From Mogibacterium sp. (GTDB taxonomy: Bacteria; Bacillota; Clostridia; Peptostreptococcales; Anaerovoracaceae): 34,719 nucleotides of DNA. This document shows, piece after piece, positions 7,611 through 16,020 of the stretch. Under the pieces are notes generated by a model. It had not been told where the DNA came from and ran no database searches. It saw only the letters and a list, made by a program, of their open reading frames with translations. Where the stretch lies: NCBI GenBank assembly GCA_017505405.1, contig JAFVPI010000008.1, positions 1 through 34,719 on the forward strand, given 5' to 3'. The translations under genes and the position numbers were made by a program. How positions within the stretch are numbered: the stretch's first letter is position 1; each line of letters starts with the position of its first letter.

Positions 7611-8411
7611 TTAATTGACTGTAACAGTGATCTGTACATATTTGGTTCCCGGTTCAAAGCCAGCATCGCCGGCAGCAGTTACCTCAAGCTCAAATGTATG
7701 AGTTCCCTGAGCAAGACCCGTTGATATGACTATTTTATCTCCTTCAACGCTGATGCCTTCATCTCCGGAAGTTTTCACGTACGTTACAGCGCCCTTCGCA
7801 TCCTGTACGGTCACCGCGTCGCTTACCGGAATCGTCTTTGCAGCGCTTTCAAGTTCAGCACCTGTAACAGTAATTTCCTTTGCAGTTACTATCATAGGGT
7901 TTGCTGGTTTTACTACCTTGACCGTTACTATTGTTGTAACAGTCTTCTTCTTAAATTTAGAATTGCCTGCAGCTGTTGCGCTGACCTTGACATTGTATGT
8001 GCCTGCCTTAAGACCCTTCTTGGCTGTTATATTGCCGTTCTTTTTGTTTACAGTGATCTTTTTGTTACCGCTCTTTTTCTTGTATGTCACTTTGCCCTTG
8101 GCATCAGCAACTACAATAGCGTACTTTCTTTTTATAGTCTGTGCTTTTTTCTTTACCTTTACAGCAGAGACCTCCACAGTATTTCCGGATATCGTTATCG
8201 TGTTTTCCTGCTTTACTACTTTTTTCTTCTTTTTAGACTTTTTCGAAGGTGCAGGTGCAGGCGGAGTGTAGCCTCCGTCAGAGCCTAATACATAGCTTGC
8301 AACACCCGGAGTCCCAAGCATCTCACATACCTCAAATGTACCTGCGACAAATACAAAAGCAAGTACAAGAGGAAGCAGGCTGCCTAATATTCTTTTGACA
8401 ATCTTCTTCAT
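7611..8411 (-). CDS. Secreted or membrane-anchored protein with two Ig-like repeats of opposite charge
   Basis: 266 residues with no named family that I recognise. An N-terminal KKIVKR followed by one hydrophobic segment (about residues 8-27) acts as signal peptide or anchor. A proline/lysine linker (PPAPAPSKKSKKKKKVVK) comes next, then two related beta-rich domains of about 95 residues. Both share the order xVTYxKxSG, G-I-x-A/V, GLxxGTxxxxVxxTAAGxxxF, then a TTIVTV-type end. The first domain is extremely lysine-rich; the second is acidic. The gene sits between the polymerase and the initiating transferase, so a role at the cell surface with the polysaccharide is inferred, perhaps by binding an anionic polymer. 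An AAAGGAG site lies 8 nt before the ATG. No LPXTG motif or C-terminal anchor is present. Confidence 0.7.
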   Translation of the reverse strand: MKKIVKRILGSLLPLVLAFVFVAGTFEVCEMLGTPGVASYVLGSDGGYTPPAPAPSKKSKKKKKVVKQENTITISGNTVEVSAVKVKKKAQTIKRKYAIVVADAKGKVTYKKKSGNKKITVNKKNGNITAKKGLKAGTYNVKVSATAAGNSKFKKKTVTTIVTVKVVKPANPMIVTAKEITVTGAELESAAKTIPVSDAVTVQDAKGAVTYVKTSGDEGISVEGDKIVISTGLAQGTHTFELEVTAAGDAGFEPGTKYVQITVTVN

Positions 8412-9793: not shown

Positions 9794-10756
9794 TTATTTA
9801 AATCTTGTAAAAACTCTGTTTAGATATGATTTCACCGTGTCAGGCTTCTCGTCCGTTCCAATTATAAGCGGCAGCACATGGTCTATGGATCTGAGACCGC
9901 TTCTCCTGAATCTTCCGGTGCAGGATGCGCAATAAGTAAAAAGTTTATGATCAGTACTTTCACCAAGTTTCTGAACGAAACCGTCGGCGAGCTCCTCCTC
10001 ATGCTTTATAGCACTTCCGCCAAGACCGCAGCATTGTGCTGAATCATTGACCGTTACATTTCCGTCTACAAATAGTTTTATTTCCTCTAACCACTTCTTT
10101 TCGGACCTGTCAGGACAAGGAATATAAAATTCCATATCGCCTTTTAGCAATTTACCTTCACCAAGCTCGCTGAGCTTGTCATAGACACTTCTGACTTTCA
10201 CCCCGAGCCTGTCCCCGAAGAAATTCATACAGTTAGGACATGCGGTAACTATCTCAGTGACCCCGGCATCATTCAGACGTCTTCTGATGCCATCAAGTAT
10301 CCTTTCTTCGTCACCGGCAAGTCCGAGCTCTGCTATCGGCTTGCCGCAGCACTCATATACGGTGCCTATGCCGTGTTCAGAAAACAGCCTGACAAGAGCG
10401 GCATTTGTTTTAGGATACATGGACGGGAAATTGCAGCCCGGAAAGAATACGGTTCCATTAGTCACATTTTTCCAGTTCCGGAATTTATAGTCACGCTTCT
10501 CAGCTATCAGGCCTTTATATTCTTTTTCAATGGCTTGTTTTCCATCCGACACTGCACGCTCACGTCTCATTTCAAGAATGAGTCCTCTTCCGTCTATCCC
10601 GACCGGGCAGACGGAAGAACACCTGCCGCACAGAAAACAATGATACGCGAGCTCTTTCAGCTTCTCAGTATCACAGATATCTATTTTGTATTTTGTCAGA
10701 AAACTGCAGTTATCCCTGCACATATGACAGTGAATGCATGCATCTGTTGAAATCAT
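9794..10756 (-). CDS. (Fe-S)-binding protein with two CCG domains, HdrD/GlcF/LutA-like
   Basis: 320 residues. The N-terminus is a ferredoxin-like region with two [4Fe-4S] motifs: C7, C10, C13, C17 and C40, C43, C46, C50 (CFLCGRCSSVCP). Two cysteine-rich CCG domains follow: FFPGC...ECCGKP...CPNC and then IPCP...QCCGLGGS...YCASC. This layout belongs to the family of heterodisulfide reductase subunit D, glycolate oxidase GlcF and LutA, which pass electrons to flavin or membrane partners. No partner oxidase gene is adjacent. It precedes the polymerase gene by one base, and lies just downstream of two secreted rhodanese-domain genes. Whether it serves sulfur or thiol redox chemistry or the polysaccharide locus cannot be told. 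The ribosome binding site is weak. Confidence 0.82.
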   Translation of the reverse strand: MISTDACIHCHMCRDNCSFLTKYKIDICDTEKLKELAYHCFLCGRCSSVCPVGIDGRGLILEMRRERAVSDGKQAIEKEYKGLIAEKRDYKFRNWKNVTNGTVFFPGCNFPSMYPKTNAALVRLFSEHGIGTVYECCGKPIAELGLAGDEERILDGIRRRLNDAGVTEIVTACPNCMNFFGDRLGVKVRSVYDKLSELGEGKLLKGDMEFYIPCPDRSEKKWLEEIKLFVDGNVTVNDSAQCCGLGGSAIKHEEELADGFVQKLGESTDHKLFTYCASCTGRFRRSGLRSIDHVLPLIIGTDEKPDTVKSYLNRVFTRFK

Positions 10757-10914: not shown

Positions 10915-13011
10915 CTATTTCTCTACTGGGAATTCCTTAGCGTTCCATGCTTTCATTCCGCCATTCGGGCCTTGAGTGAAGTCATCCTGTCCGAGGATGA
11001 AAACATTTTCAGGAGCAATACCGAGTTCATCGGTAAGTATGGCTTTTGCAGTATTAGCATATTTGTTTCCGCTATAGCAGATAAGAACGTATTTCAGTCC
11101 ATCGTCACCTTTGACAGCATTTTCGACATTAGTTTTTGCCTCTGCCTTCTGCTCATCTGTAGGTTCACTGTTAGCCGCTACAGCCGATACATCAGCAGAC
11201 ACAGCAGACTTGATATGCCCTGCCGCAAAGTCATCTGCCTTGCGTGTATCAAGCACCTTGAAGCTTCCGCCTGCAAATTCTTCGGCTTCAATAGCTCTGT
11301 TAAGCTCATCTGCGCTTATGATCTGTGAACCCGGAGTGATTTTAAGTGTGAACGATGCTTCTTTATCATTAGCGTTTGCCTCAGCCTTGATAGTTACCGT
11401 CTTCTCTGCAGAAGCATCCAGAACCTGAACTGTTCCGTCTTCATTAACAGTTGCCACACTCGGATCACTTGATGAGAACTTAACTGACTTCTGAATGTTT
11501 TCCTTAGGAGGCATGAGATTGAATACGTCGTAGTAGTTTCCGGTGAATCTTGCAGTAAGCACTTCCTGATTTGCGGAAAGACCTCTCAGAGGGTTGAAGT
11601 ATTCATCTGCATCCCAGAGCGCCTTTACAGTAGTTTCTTTAACTGCACCCTTTGCCGGGTCGCCGATCTGAACCGGATGGCTGTTGAAGTCTTCACCCTT
11701 TGCAGTTCTGTCACCATAGTTCCATGGGTCAGAGTATGCGCCTGAGTATACATACCAGCCGTCATCCCAAAGCTTCATATTGTCAATGCCCTCTTCATAG
11801 CAGATCAGGAAAGGAATGGTAGCTCTCCAGCCTGTTCCGCAGTAGAAAGCAAGCTCGTTCTTTGTGGATGCTCCATATGGCGCAAGGTATTCATTGATCT
11901 TATCGGTATCAACTGTCTTGCCATTTGCAAAATACGAGCTGTCATCGGTATCATGGCCCCAGATAGCTCCCTTAGGCTCTCCGGCGATATCAATATAAGC
12001 ATATCCTGAATTCTTTCCACAGAACTCATCGTATGAGCGGATACTTACCAGTTTGAAGTTCGAATCGCTCTCTACTTTCTTGAGCATGTCAGCAGTAGAG
12101 ATCACCCATTCAGGATGAAGTGGTTCTGTCCTTCCGAACGAAGCAGCTGTTGGCACAGCAGCTTCTGCTTTTGTGACCATAGGATATCCCTTGTCACCCC
12201 ATGCAGCTACGCCTCCGTCAAGAACTCTTACCTTCTTTACACCCATCATCAGAGCAGCCATTGCAAGTCTTGTCTGGGCTGAACCAGCAGGATCTGCGCC
12301 ATAGCAAATCAGCTCTGTGTCTGTTGTGATGCCGTAGCTTCCAAGTGCAGCAATAAGTTCTTTGTAATTATTGTTGAAGCCTCTGAGATCCCAGAACTCG
12401 TAGCCAAGATCCTGATAGTTGCTTTCAAGATCGTCTGTGTTTACATGGATGGCTCCCTTGATCATATAGTCCGGAGCATACTCCATTGGTCCCCAGGATA
12501 CTTCAGCAATTACGACATTACTTGCACCGCTGTCAACAAGAGCTTTTACATAATCAGCATCTACGAACACCTGTCTGTCAGATATTTCAGGTACCGCAGA
12601 TTTTTTCTGTGTCTTTGCTGAAACTGTCTTGCTGAATTTGCCTTTCTTCTTGCCGTTGATCGCTCTTACCTTGAAGTAATACTTTTTGTTGGCTTTAAGA
12701 GCTTTTTTGTTGTACTTCTTAACGGTATAGGATCTCGCTGAAGCCTTGACTGTAGCGGCTCTTTTGAAATTCTTCTTCGCATTTGTGGATACATAGATCT
12801 GATACTTTTTGGCATTTTTCGCCTTTTTCCAGGTCACTTTGACTGAAGACGAAGACACCGCCTCTGCCTTCACTCCGGTGACTTTAGCAGGCTTCTTTGC
12901 CTTTGCAGCAGCATAAGCCTGGTTCACCGGCATCACTGAATATGTGAATACTACAGCGAGTGCCAGAATGAATACCATGACCTTGCTCATCCAGGATGAT
13001 CTTTTAGTCAT
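10915..13011 (-). CDS. Secreted FN3 protein with three rhodanese-like domains and a Big_2-type domain
   Basis: 698 residues from ATG 13011, chosen because GGAGGG lies 5 nt upstream. A signal peptide (residues 1-34, ending near QAYA) precedes a lysine-rich FN3 domain (about 41-134). Residues about 145-280 and 300-425 form a tandem rhodanese pair like thiosulfate or mercaptopyruvate sulfurtransferases. The first has a degenerate loop (ICYGADP, C236). The second has C391 in CGTGWRAT and keeps the expected Cys-x4-Arg. A Big_2-like Ig segment follows (about 480-558, SSSDPSVATVNEDGTV). A third rhodanese (565-698) has C645 in CYSGNKYA. Rhodaneses move sulfane sulfur onto thiols; extracellular substrates are unknown. 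There is no LPXTG or SLH anchor. The N-terminal 134 residues and the third rhodanese are paralogous to the next gene upstream. Confidence 0.85.
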   Translation of the reverse strand: MTKRSSWMSKVMVFILALAVVFTYSVMPVNQAYAAAKAKKPAKVTGVKAEAVSSSSVKVTWKKAKNAKKYQIYVSTNAKKNFKRAATVKASARSYTVKKYNKKALKANKKYYFKVRAINGKKKGKFSKTVSAKTQKKSAVPEISDRQVFVDADYVKALVDSGASNVVIAEVSWGPMEYAPDYMIKGAIHVNTDDLESNYQDLGYEFWDLRGFNNNYKELIAALGSYGITTDTELICYGADPAGSAQTRLAMAALMMGVKKVRVLDGGVAAWGDKGYPMVTKAEAAVPTAASFGRTEPLHPEWVISTADMLKKVESDSNFKLVSIRSYDEFCGKNSGYAYIDIAGEPKGAIWGHDTDDSSYFANGKTVDTDKINEYLAPYGASTKNELAFYCGTGWRATIPFLICYEEGIDNMKLWDDGWYVYSGAYSDPWNYGDRTAKGEDFNSHPVQIGDPAKGAVKETTVKALWDADEYFNPLRGLSANQEVLTARFTGNYYDVFNLMPPKENIQKSVKFSSSDPSVATVNEDGTVQVLDASAEKTVTIKAEANANDKEASFTLKITPGSQIISADELNRAIEAEEFAGGSFKVLDTRKADDFAAGHIKSAVSADVSAVAANSEPTDEQKAEAKTNVENAVKGDDGLKYVLICYSGNKYANTAKAILTDELGIAPENVFILGQDDFTQGPNGGMKAWNAKEFPVEK
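12611..13010 (-). repeat. 400-bp near-identical repeat, copy 1 (signal peptide plus FN3)
   Basis: This stretch matches 15014-15413 almost base for base, with scattered mostly synonymous differences and no gaps. The part nearest the start codon (about 12838-13000) differs at only one or two positions. Both copies encode the same roughly 134 residues, apart from Thr versus Ala at position 2. This indicates recent duplication or ongoing gene conversion between the two secreted-protein genes. Confidence 0.92.
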
Positions 13012-13037
13012 AAATCCCTCCAAATTTTACCTATATT

Positions 13038-13065
13038 GTATTAACTGGTACTGTGATTCTACCAA
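13038..13065 (-). promoter_or_regulatory. Promoter of the three-rhodanese gene (TTGGTA-16-TAATAC)
   Basis: On the minus strand TTGGTA (13060-13065) and TAATAC (13038-13043) are separated by 16 nt, with TAATAC 26 nt before the ATG. The same arrangement, preceded by the same CTTTTTTTATTG stretch, occurs before the paralogous gene. An alternative, TTGACT with TTTTAT, lies further upstream. Confidence 0.55.
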
Positions 13066-13133
13066 TAAAAAAAGTGTGCATAAAATTGATAGAGTATATA
13101 ATAGTCAACCAGTATATTGCATTATTTAATGCT

Positions 13134-13171
13134 AAAACAGCATTTCCGCATTATTGCGGAAATGCTGTTTT
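13134..13171 (-). terminator. Terminator after the transglutaminase/rhodanese gene
   Basis: A perfect 17-bp stem (AAAACAGCATTTCCGCA and its complement) with loop TTAT lies 32 nt past the stop at 13204. The arm ends in TTTT on either strand, so it could work in both directions. Confidence 0.8.
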
Positions 13172-13203
13172 TATCAGGAACTAGCATTTATACAGCGTTT
13201 TAT

Positions 13204-15414
13204 CTAGAAGTTTGTTGCTCCTCCGATAAGATATGTAATTTTGCTCATATCAACACCCTTATCAGCGTAGTAAAGAAGTGCTTTCTTAGCCATAGCATTA
13301 CCCGTATAACATACGATCACTATTCTTTTACCCTGCGCAGCTTCAAAAGCAGCGTCAAGGTTTGCAGCAACTTTATCATCCGCTTTTACAGGCGCTGAGT
13401 ATGCTCCCTCTACGGCAGGCTCAGAACCGGCGTCTCTTACATCAACCAGGAAATCTTCTGCCTTAACTTCACTCTTAGCAATTCCGAGGAAACTTGCAGG
13501 ATACTTAGCCGACCATGCTTTCATGCCGCCATTTGCGCCCTGTGTTCCGTCGTCCTGTGCAAGGATCAGAATGTTGTCATTCTTTGCACCAGCTTCCAGG
13601 AGCAGTTCTCTTCCGGCATTTGCAAATTTGTTGCCTGTGTAGCAGATAAGTGCATATCTCTGTGATGCAAGGTCATCCTTCTCGATTACTTTGGCAAGAT
13701 TTGCTGCAGCAGCAGTCTTGTCATTATTGTCAACATATGGTCCCATGTCTGCACTTACTGCAGTTACGATATGTCCTGCAGAATAGTCAGCTGCACGGCG
13801 GAGGTCGACGACCTTGATACTTCCTGCTTTCATCTCACTCATCAGTGCTTCTGCAGTAATAGTTTGTGCAACTTCTTCAGGCTGTTCAGGTGCTGCCTCA
13901 GCGCATGTGATCGTGTACTTGAAGTCTTTGTACTTAGTGCAGTCGATATCTTTGCCTGCAGCATCCTTCTGAACGCCGTCCACTTCAGCATAAGGATATC
14001 CGAATGTATTTCTGACATCACCCTTCTGTGCAGGTTCAAGCACGAGGTCGCGGCCTCTGCTCAGAACGACTCTGTTGTTGTCTACACCGCACCAGAGAGC
14101 TTTCTTCTTATCGAGTACGGACTGATCCTTTCTTGCAGCTTCGATAGCTTCTTTCGATCTGTCAGCTGCTACCGATCTTGCCTGCTTGAGTACATCACCA
14201 GGGTCTGCGAATGTCCAGCCTTCGCCCGGCAGATAGAACTCAGCCCAGCAGTGCTGTCCGTCACTGGATGTATCGTTGAGACGGATACCAAACATTTCTC
14301 TTGCAGCGATGCCGTTGGCACGGCAGAGTGCTACGAAGCAGGAGTTGAGGTCTGTGCAGTGGCCACCCCATCTTCCGTACTTTTCGAATCTCTCAAGGAG
14401 ATTGCCAGGGTTACCTTCTCCGCATCCGGTTGCATTGAAGAACTCAACTTCTTTGCCATCCTTATCCTTGAATTTGTCGCCGATATCAAATCTCTCAAGA
14501 TTATCAATTACCCAGTTGTAGATATTCTCAGCTTTGCCGAGAGTTGTTGTAGCATCGCCGGCAGCGATCTTTGCATACTTCTGTACAAAAGCATTATCAA
14601 GATCGATCGCACTGCTTTCAAGGCTGATGAACTTCTCTGCATCAGCAGGGATAGTTGCGGAAGCATCTTCCTTAGGATCAGGACGGCTAACGGCTTTCCT
14701 CTCAACATCAAACTTAACTGTAGCCTTTCTGTCCGCAGGTTCCGCATTCTCGTCCCAAACGAAATGAGCCATCTGGTTGCTCCAGCCGCTGTTTTTCTCA
14801 ACAGTGAATTCACTGGCAACTACTCCATCGGCTTTTAAATCATAGTTGCTGACGACCTGATAAGATTCGCTGCTTGGCACAGGTACCCAGACTTCTACCT
14901 TGTGTCCCTTAGGGTATCTTGTCTCATCGGTCATATCCACCTCGATCGTCATCGTTCTTGACTTGGCTTCACCGACATTAGGGTCTTTTTCAACAATGTT
15001 TTCTTTCTGCTTGGTCTTTGCTGAAACTGTTTTGCTGAACTTGCCTTTCTTCTTGCCGTTGATCGCTCTTACCTTGAAGTAGTACTTTTTGTTGGCCTTC
15101 AAAGCCTTTTTGTTGTACTTCTTAACGGTATAGGATCTCGCTGAAGCCTTGACCGTAGCGGCTCTTTTGAAATTCTTCTTCGCGTTTGTAGATACATAGA
15201 TCTGATACTTCTTGGCATTTTTCGCCTTTTTCCAGGTCACTTTGACTGAAGACGAGGACACCGCCTCTGCCTTCACTCCGGTGACTTTAGCAGGCTTCTT
15301 TGCCTTTGCAGCAGCATAAGCCTGGTTCACCGGCATCACTGAATATGTGAATACTACAGCGAGTGCCAGAATGAATACCATGACCTTGCTCATCCATGAT
15401 GATCTTTTAGCCAT
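13204..15414 (-). CDS. Secreted FN3 protein with transglutaminase-like and two rhodanese-like domains
   Basis: 736 residues from ATG 15414, set by GGAGGAG 4-5 nt upstream. The first 134 residues (signal peptide plus lysine-rich FN3) nearly equal those of the neighbouring paralogue. Residues about 150-245 look like the beta-sandwich that often precedes bacterial transglutaminase domains (VEVWVPVPSSESYQVVSNY). The transglutaminase-like core follows with C353 in WGGHCTDLNSCF, H388 in GQHCWAEFYLPG and D404 in TFADPGD, so the catalytic triad is intact. Two rhodanese-like domains close the protein: about 515-640 with C591 in CYTGNKFA, and about 645-736 with C702 in CYTGNAMA. The role may be protein cross-linking, proteolysis or thiol/persulfide chemistry at the cell surface; this is inference. 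There is no wall-anchor motif. Confidence 0.85.
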   Translation of the reverse strand: MAKRSSWMSKVMVFILALAVVFTYSVMPVNQAYAAAKAKKPAKVTGVKAEAVSSSSVKVTWKKAKNAKKYQIYVSTNAKKNFKRAATVKASARSYTVKKYNKKALKANKKYYFKVRAINGKKKGKFSKTVSAKTKQKENIVEKDPNVGEAKSRTMTIEVDMTDETRYPKGHKVEVWVPVPSSESYQVVSNYDLKADGVVASEFTVEKNSGWSNQMAHFVWDENAEPADRKATVKFDVERKAVSRPDPKEDASATIPADAEKFISLESSAIDLDNAFVQKYAKIAAGDATTTLGKAENIYNWVIDNLERFDIGDKFKDKDGKEVEFFNATGCGEGNPGNLLERFEKYGRWGGHCTDLNSCFVALCRANGIAAREMFGIRLNDTSSDGQHCWAEFYLPGEGWTFADPGDVLKQARSVAADRSKEAIEAARKDQSVLDKKKALWCGVDNNRVVLSRGRDLVLEPAQKGDVRNTFGYPYAEVDGVQKDAAGKDIDCTKYKDFKYTITCAEAAPEQPEEVAQTITAEALMSEMKAGSIKVVDLRRAADYSAGHIVTAVSADMGPYVDNNDKTAAAANLAKVIEKDDLASQRYALICYTGNKFANAGRELLLEAGAKNDNILILAQDDGTQGANGGMKAWSAKYPASFLGIAKSEVKAEDFLVDVRDAGSEPAVEGAYSAPVKADDKVAANLDAAFEAAQGKRIVIVCYTGNAMAKKALLYYADKGVDMSKITYLIGGATNF
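15014..15413 (-). repeat. 400-bp near-identical repeat, copy 2 (signal peptide plus FN3)
   Basis: Partner of 12611-13010 at the same position in the paralogous gene. Beyond the repeat the two proteins diverge, except that their CYxGNK rhodanese domains are related at protein level. The similarity also touches the upstream promoter elements. Confidence 0.92.
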
Positions 15415-15564: not shown

Positions 15565-16020
15565 CTAATTTATTTCTTCCTCTTCCGGTTCCGAAACAAT
15601 ATCTTCAAGTATTTCTATCGCTTCAAGAACAAATTCCGGACAAAGTGAGAACAGTTTGCCGGATTCGATTATCCTGCTGAAGCCTTCCGGCGTTGAGATA
15701 TCGTCTTCAAGCAGATCCCTGCACATACATGAGCCTCTTACGGCTTTCCATTTATCAATGAATTCGCGGCGCTTTGCAATCAGCACATCTCTTTGTTCCA
15801 TATCATCAGGACCGCTGTGACCATATCGCATCCCGATCACCATGAGCGCTCCGACGACAGCTCCGCAGGTCTCTCCAATACCGGATCCGCCTCCGAATGC
15901 GGCAGCAAGCCTGTTGGCTTTGTCATATGGGATCCCCAGCTCATCCGCGTAATGACTGAGCACCACCTGGCTGCAGTCCTGGCCTTTCATAAAAAGATCA
16001 GCGATTTGTTCTTTCTCCAT
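15565..16020 (-). CDS. C_GCAxxG_C_C family protein
   Basis: 151 residues matching the C_GCAxxG_C_C (TIGR01909) family of small cysteine proteins from anaerobes. Visible marks are a first Cys in GQDCSQVVL, GGGSGIGETCGAVVGALMVIG with the central GxTCGAxxG motif, a Cys pair in GSCMCRDLL, and a late Cys in FSLCPEF. The conserved cysteines suggest metal or cluster binding, and the function is not established. The C-terminus is unusually acidic (EPEEEE). A GAGGGAT ribosome binding site lies 5 nt before the ATG. It stands alone between two terminators. Confidence 0.88.
   Translation of the reverse strand: MEKEQIADLFMKGQDCSQVVLSHYADELGIPYDKANRLAAAFGGGSGIGETCGAVVGALMVIGMRYGHSGPDDMEQRDVLIAKRREFIDKWKAVRGSCMCRDLLEDDISTPEGFSRIIESGKLFSLCPEFVLEAIEILEDIVSEPEEEEIN

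Follow-up and report, generated by a model that had tools for sequence, protein, structure and literature searches.

We analysed a 34,719-nucleotide stretch of Mogibacterium sp. DNA (GenBank assembly GCA_017505405.1, contig JAFVPI010000008.1, positions 1 to 34,719; hereafter the window) and found that two adjacent genes encode predicted exported proteins, A and B, that carry between them five rhodanese-like domains and one transglutaminase-like (TG) domain. The joining of this TG with rhodaneses recurs in the genus and in distant bacteria. Each domain family is already known, and it is the recurrent TG–rhodanese union that appears to stand out. We propose, at roughly even odds (a probability of about 0.5), that A and B form the part of a sulfane-sulfur handling unit that is exported and probably attached to the wall.

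The open reading frames of A and B were confirmed as adjacent and co-directional, both on the minus strand, and a GGAGG-type ribosome site precedes the ATG of each. Against Pfam, whole protein A matches Rhodanese (E 7e-27, three stretches), fn3 (1.9e-10) and Big_2 (3.8e-6), while whole protein B matches Transglut_core (4.2e-18), Rhodanese (1.9e-13, two stretches) and fn3 (4.8e-11). The whole-protein Rhodanese (PF00581) scores, 94.3 bits for A and 51.2 bits for B, exceed the Pfam cut-off of 22.2, and the Transglut_core (PF01841) score of B, 66.1 bits, exceeds a cut-off of 23. Scored singly, four of the five rhodaneses lie above the cut-off, one of these only jointly with its in-frame neighbours. 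An earlier sequence-only reading of this DNA had described five rhodaneses and a TG on two neighbouring exported proteins, and the Pfam searches (PF00581, PF01841, PF00041) bear out these domains, with Big_2 in A as an addition.

Catalytic residues are largely in place. Of the five rhodaneses, four have a Cys of the catalytic type, namely A2 (loop CGTGWRA), A3 (CYSGNKY), B1 (CYTGNKF) and B2 (CYTGNAM). The remaining domain, A rhodanese 1, has no C-x-x-G loop and no Cys at the equivalent position in an alignment with YnjE; it resembles the NCBIfam model NF041203, rhodanese-related (seleno)protein, at 5e-8, under the curated cut-off. YnjE itself (2wlr) is the top PDB match of A (E 9.1e-37, A residues 155-437), and A's tandem is of the YnjE type, with two rhodanese domains, the active Cys in the C-terminal one and an identical CGTGWR loop. 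A rhodanese 3 is a paralogue of B rhodanese 1 at 50% identity, and the latter matches NCBIfam GlpE at 2.8e-5, under that model's cut-off. The TG triad of B, previously reported as intact, is complete by alignment and residue table: C353 (14356-14358), H388 (14251-14253) and D404 (14203-14205). Directly after the catalytic H388 stands a further Cys, C389 (codon 14248-14250). Over their first ~134 residues, which comprise a signal-peptide-like N-terminus and the FN3 module, A and B are 99% identical; the hydrophobic segment was recognized by eye in A and by a hydropathy rule in B. Both N-termini are thus of the exported type, and we predict that both proteins leave the cytoplasm, as the sequence-only reading had supposed.

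To examine linkage within the genus we used 36 congeneric genomes, the window's own (G000) included, and 24 same-order genomes from outside the genus. A TG of B's type occurs in nine of the 36 (G000, G006, G008, G009, G015, G021, G026, G028 and G029), and in all nine at least one rhodanese, by Pfam, lies in the same open frame. Among the 24 same-order genomes outside the genus the TG part found no match, the sole match (G043) falling in the FN3. The pairing, whose conservation had been proposed for survey, holds in every congener with this TG type (9/9); the TG type itself occurs in 9/36 congeners and 0/24 of the same-order outsiders. In three genomes (G009, G015 and G026), a single polypeptide unites FN3, a tandem with CGTGWR, the TG and additional rhodaneses. 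The nearest relative, G026, has the order FN3-tandem-TG-rhodanese-rhodanese; its TG part is 64-70% identical to that of the window and its neighbouring CCG protein 74%, while its tandem is only 40% identical to A's. Because of these unequal identities, A and B are not simply the G026 protein split in two. Domain order also differs among the congeners.

A second TG-like type occurs in six congeneric genomes, contig C76 of the window's own genome included, near a separate secreted rhodanese gene. This rhodanese is Pfam-backed in five of the six; the sixth (L058) comes from a custom rhodanese model. The C-terminus of the second type is CGC in all six. On C76 (G000:C76, L054:4222-6577) the second-type TG adjoins a secreted rhodanese whose loop, CGFTKCQRS, has two Cys, and next come a PAP2 gene (Pfam) and a gene that resembles an MscS channel, as judged by reading and not by a model.

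Beyond the genus, contigs were scanned with the TG alignment and the best 80 of 352 confirmed relatives were kept, so that the counts describe the nearest relatives only. These comprise nine loci in the genus (L061-L069, of which L061-L068 repeat L043-L050) and 71 outside it, with near-copies at L075/L130 and at L072/L073. The outside loci come from Bacillota, Actinomycetota and mostly Desulfobacterota-type genomes. A rhodanese open reading frame lies within 2 kb of the TG in 16 of the 71, five fused and 11 adjacent, and all 16 are Pfam-confirmed. Among the five fused loci (L078, L105, L106, L108 and L129), L078, from Lachnospiraceae, has the order rhodanese-TG-tandem with CGTGWR. L105, L108 and L129 show TG-rhodanese-rhodanese, which is B's order, with other loops: their second domain carries CNSGGRS, and the first rhodanese loop of L105 is CNGVKCGKS.

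This linkage is well above background. With the custom rhodanese model, 16 rhodanese open reading frames were found in 344 kb within 2 kb of the TG, versus two in 512 kb farther away in the same loci (binomial 2.8e-5). The model was seeded from rhodanese domains of the genus, mostly TG-linked, and iterated on the retrieved loci; because it may favour linked rhodaneses, we added a whole-genome background based on Pfam. For this control, 35 whole genomes were drawn from the 71 outside loci by taking alternate loci from L070 to L140, without L130; they gave 289 rhodanese domains in ~119 Mb and 38 TG matches, for which ~0.46 near domains are expected. A TG–rhodanese link was found in seven of the 35 (L078, L102, L106, L108, L110, L112 and L120; Poisson 5.8e-7). 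The pairing of a TG fold with rhodaneses outside the membrane, to which the sequence-only reading had drawn attention, is thus upheld, with export as predicted from the N-termini, and it recurs in the genus and beyond.

In a quick maximum-likelihood tree of 91 TG domains, the fused label needs five changes, and branches with good support require at least four of these. The approximately unbiased test, run on this quick tree with two long branches, rejects the grouping of all fused TGs in one clade (p 1.8e-68). TG and rhodanese were thus joined, or their union was transmitted, on more than one occasion. A sixth fusion had been considered at L073, where the custom model places a rhodanese at the contig edge; it was unconfirmed by Pfam and was left out of the five in 71. 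This rhodanese is one of the two far open reading frames counted above, and the label changes number five without L073 and six with it. In L072 and L073 (Eggerthellaceae) the protein carries a tandem pair of TG domains, both from this one family, and its gene has DmsB-like and molybdopterin oxidoreductase neighbours.

The TGs collected in this way share a residue signature. Across 99 TG domains (with the L061-L068 duplicates counted apart), the catalytic residues are C-H-D in 93 and C-N-D in six, and a Cys directly follows the His position in 99 of 99. The two patterns of the scan contain the catalytic Cys and Asp, which are therefore partly selected; the His and the Cys that follows it are in neither pattern. 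B's TG has the Cys-His-Asp order and the family model in common with the PF01841 superfamily, from which its subfamily differs by the Cys after the catalytic His and by the recurrent company of rhodaneses. A hydrophobic N-terminal segment is present in 87 of 89 TG open reading frames versus 135 of 388 other long ones, as judged by a plain hydropathy rule with generous starts.

A third gene, encoding a Cys-rich 4Fe-4S protein with CCG domains, accompanies A and B. The protein matches the NCBIfam model NF045663, diclust_near_Sec, at 7.6e-32, under the curated cut-off and over model positions 310-639 of 759, and it has matches in 16 congeneric genomes at E 1e-20. By coordinates, ~0.5 kb at most separates the gene from a TG or rhodanese gene in G000, G004, G008, G009, G015, G026, G028 and G029; it is cut by the contig end in G015 and G028 and lies on the opposite strand in G008 and G028. 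In G007 it is ~1.3 kb from a tandem rhodanese, by match coordinates, and is broken by a stop. The CCG gene thus adjoins TG or rhodanese genes in nine congeneric genomes, the window's own included, and is fused to rhodaneses in a tenth: in G005 (L052:9156-10910) a CCG 4Fe-4S protein is joined to three rhodaneses without a signal peptide, which would be a cytoplasmic version of the partnership. In G001, G010, G012, G021, G032 and G034 the listed match positions show no adjoining TG or rhodanese gene, the regions themselves not having been retrieved.

In the proposed unit, thiosulfate, polysulfide or a mercapto donor would supply sulfane sulfur to A's YnjE-type tandem, where the Cys in the CGTGWR loop would receive it, and the rhodaneses of GlpE type in A (CYSGNK) and B (CYTGNK) would relay it as a persulfide. 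B's TG domain would act on the acceptor side: by cleaving or making an amide or acyl bond in a thiol compound or protein it would make or release an acceptor thiol, or its own active Cys would take the sulfur. The FN3 modules would keep the enzymes at the surface, and the CCG Fe-S protein would be a likely redox partner in the cytoplasm. This proposal builds on the observed domains and residues, the exported-type N-terminus, the recurrent TG–rhodanese linkage and other neighbours of sulfur or selenium type; the named families suggest that the rhodaneses transfer sulfur, while the acceptor-side step, the surface and redox step and the direction of flow are what we infer. Within 2 kb of the TG at the 71 loci, BLAST finds six TtrA-like, five other molybdopterin oxidoreductases, six double-cubane reductases, three YedF/TusA-like proteins and 12 LysR. 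The repeated proximity of the CCG gene to TG or rhodanese genes speaks for the proposal too, and so does the closest hint in the literature searched: Table 1 of PMC5322559 has a transglutaminase-like enzyme among the STRING partners of YedF in Slackia heliotrinireducens. The thiol or persulfide theme of the sequence-only reading is supported. More tentatively, and at less than even odds, the exported TG-like subfamily with a Cys after its catalytic His could be a general enzyme of extracytoplasmic sulfane-sulfur metabolism in gut anaerobes, Geobacter and Desulfobulbus-type bacteria, with rhodaneses loading or unloading sulfur on the acceptor that it makes, or on its active Cys. The repeated joining of TG and rhodanese in distant bacteria offers a testable lead to a thiol enzyme that would take part in extracytoplasmic handling of sulfane sulfur. 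Should this prove correct, anaerobes in the ruminant gut and in sediments would have an extra step in their use of thiosulfate, polysulfide or tetrathionate.

Several observations weigh against the sulfane-sulfur proposal. In 55 of the 71 outside loci no rhodanese lies within 2 kb, which means that the TG can work without a rhodanese beside it, and at the near-copies L075 and L130 the adjacent rhodanese is on the strand opposite the TG. In all six TGs of the second type, Asn replaces the catalytic His, with Cys and Asp kept; this type may be inactive as an acyl transferase, which tells against all TGs of the group being working enzymes. The CCG protein lacks a hydrophobic N-terminus, which would place it on the opposite side of the membrane from A and B, in the cytoplasm. 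YnjE barely raised cellular sulfane sulfur from thiosulfate, with overlapping error bars (PMC10215317, in excerpt), and SseA-type rhodaneses have no apparent link with sulfur disproportionation in the excerpted text of PMC12998232. The counts of neighbours other than rhodaneses are uncontrolled. Finally, SelD was found in all 22 congeneric genomes searched, 16 of which lack B's TG; being present with or without this TG, it cannot discriminate, and a selenium link by co-occurrence was rejected.

The chemistry of the TG admits another explanation. By profile, the solved structure nearest to it (E 6.9e-7) is 3isr, which bears the title putative cysteine protease; 6g49, titled protein-glutamine gamma-glutamyltransferase, comes next. 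Transamidation, hydrolysis and other thiol chemistry would look alike at the level of sequence. The TG may then be a peptidase or amidase of small thiol peptides, glutathione-like or gamma-glutamyl, that frees Cys, with the rhodaneses detoxifying or capturing sulfane sulfur and passing none to the TG. The title of 3isr speaks for such an enzyme, the single copy of the TG in 33 of the 35 whole genomes would suit a plain hydrolase, and much of the data is compatible with it. Taken alone, however, it leaves the repeated fusion with rhodaneses unexplained, and we consider it unlikely.

The N-terminal module common to A and B bears on a second alternative. DNA identity between the two genes runs from the ATG to the last part of the FN3, with 25-30 of 30 bases identical inside and 13-16 of 30 just past the 3' end of the module, and a 300-base stretch is 95% identical. 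Such a pattern suggests that a single secretion-plus-surface module was recently duplicated or converted. Three further, weaker copies of the FN3 module are found elsewhere in the same genome. In G008, G028 and G029 the module is Big_2 instead of FN3, and in G028 an adjacent TG-rhodanese protein and tandem-rhodanese protein both have it; modules are thus exchanged, and inside a genome they stay alike. The sequence-only reading had spoken of a shared FN3 module with swapped domains; a near-identical secretion and FN3 module is indeed shared, but rhodaneses are on both proteins and the TG is on B only. That reading had also raised cysteine-based cross-linking, for which there is no direct support. 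In a surface cross-linking scheme, B would join surface proteins, or anchor A and B to the wall, with the Lys-rich FN3 as amine donor and the rhodaneses regulating or protecting the active Cys. The common module, the complete Cys-His-Asp of B and the composition of A's FN3 stretch (98 residues counted, with 29 Lys, 3 Arg, 1 Glu and 0 Asp) are in keeping with such a scheme. It is made decidedly unlikely by the lack of FN3 on the Pfam-scanned TGs of outside loci, which are mostly from Gram-negative sulfur bacteria, by the replacement of FN3 with Big_2 in the three congeners and by the weaker module copies elsewhere in the genome.

Neighbouring genes raise the question of whether the unit might process selenium compounds, instead of sulfur, outside the membrane. 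The BLAST searches for the neighbour families used one or two members of each family, and a single member of the double-cubane, TtrA and LysR families was tested against a model. The L108 double-cubane reductase scores 485.7 bits against NF040772, above the cut-off of 350; the L115 neighbour scores 584.6 bits against TtrA NF011567, below the cut-off of 1750, and is therefore called TtrA-like only; and the L098 LysR scores 158 bits against NF040786, the selenium-metabolism LysR, below the cut-off of 250. Of the YedF/TusA-like neighbours, the L108 protein has TusA and DsrE and the L125 protein TusA alone. PMC5322559 (in excerpt) links YedF, 2-hydroxyglutaryl-CoA dehydratase-like genes and a subfamily of LysR to selenium. 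YedF-like, double-cubane and LysR genes adjoin the TG in some loci, and the likeness of the CCG protein to diclust_near_Sec, under the cut-off, points the same way. Set against these are the presence of SelD irrespective of B's TG and the sub-threshold score of the one LysR tested, and we regard selenium as a very unlikely substrate. The selD gene of the window's own genome (G000:C43:31455-32393) has an in-frame TGA, as is the case in 21 of the 22 congeneric genomes, this one included; such a codon is expected of a selenocysteine-containing SelD.

Incidental shuffling, in which surface proteins of the genus swap domains freely and TG and rhodanese keep company without joint function, is highly improbable. 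In its favour, FN3 and Big_2 are exchanged, domain order varies between congeners, and A's tandem has diverged further from that of G026 (40% identity) than have the TG and CCG parts (64-74%); against it, the linkage is above background in other groups and involves other rhodanese types.

Wolinella Sud is a periplasmic single-domain rhodanese of extracytoplasmic sulfane-sulfur transfer; both Sud and PspE differ from the present proteins in being single domains without a TG. PspE is likewise extracytoplasmic and converts thiosulfate to sulfane sulfur (PMC10215317, in excerpt). Closest to A is E. coli YnjE (2wlr/3ipo), a periplasmic multi-domain thiosulfate sulfurtransferase (same source), which has in common with A the tandem, the CGTGWR in the C-terminal half and export, predicted in the case of A; A differs by its FN3, Big_2, GlpE-like rhodanese and neighbouring TG protein. 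The statement that rhodaneses are normally cytosolic or single-domain does not stand, since both PspE and YnjE reside in the periplasm and the latter contains at least two rhodanese domains (same excerpts). The YTD/MOLY clusters of sulfur disproportionators (PMC12998232) resemble some TG loci by gene kind, in having TusA/DsrE-type and exported molybdopterin oxidoreductase genes; the word transglutaminase was not found in that source. NF045663 and NF041203 are known families that the CCG protein and A rhodanese 1, respectively, resemble under curated cut-offs. In the published literature searched, outside which most subscription journals and preprints lie, neither the TG–rhodanese union nor the TG subfamily signature was found, no function is assigned to the TG-like family, and the excerpted portions of PMC10318531, PMC1779556 and PMC4502522 contain nothing on the pairing. 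Within this scope, the earlier statement that no described system has this make-up holds. The coordinates of A, B and the CCG protein are collected in the table.

Table. Features of proteins A and B and of the neighbouring CCG protein, in window coordinates.
Feature	Position	Strand	Basis or content
Protein B, 736 aa	15414-13204	-	Signal-peptide-like N-terminus, FN3, transglutaminase-like (TG) domain, two rhodaneses
B FN3 module, near-identical to A's	15022..15288	-	Pfam fn3 4.8e-11 and DNA identity
B Transglut_core	14200..14562	-	Pfam 4.2e-18, TG alignment, residue table
B rhodanese 1, loop CYTGNKF, GlpE-like	13507..13857	-	38.2 bits
B rhodanese 2, loop CYTGNAM	13207..13464	-	21.2 bits alone (cut-off 22.2); second Pfam stretch
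Protein A, 698 aa	13011-10915	-	Signal-peptide-like N-terminus, FN3, YnjE-like tandem rhodanese, Big_2, single rhodanese
A FN3 module	12619..12885	-	Pfam 1.9e-10
A rhodanese 1, N-terminal tandem half, without catalytic Cys	12193..12558	-	39.2 bits; YnjE alignment
A rhodanese 2, active-type half, loop CGTGWRA	11743..12093	-	21.7 bits alone, 22.2 with neighbours
A Big_2 (Ig-like) stretch	11359..11502	-	Pfam 3.8e-6
A rhodanese 3, loop CYSGNKY	10939..11316	-	44.8 bits
4Fe-4S / CCG cysteine-rich protein	9794..10756	-	Pfam CCG 7e-13

Directly upstream of B, at 15565-16020, lies a gene for a C_GCAxxG_C_C putative redox protein (PF09719, 4.2e-27). Farther off, at 7611-8411, a small Lys-rich protein with a hydrophobic N-terminus is encoded next to an O-antigen-ligase-like gene (Wzy_C, Pfam). 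By eye, other genes of exopolysaccharide type lie near it, and similar small proteins occupy like places in L045, L049, L051 and L053.

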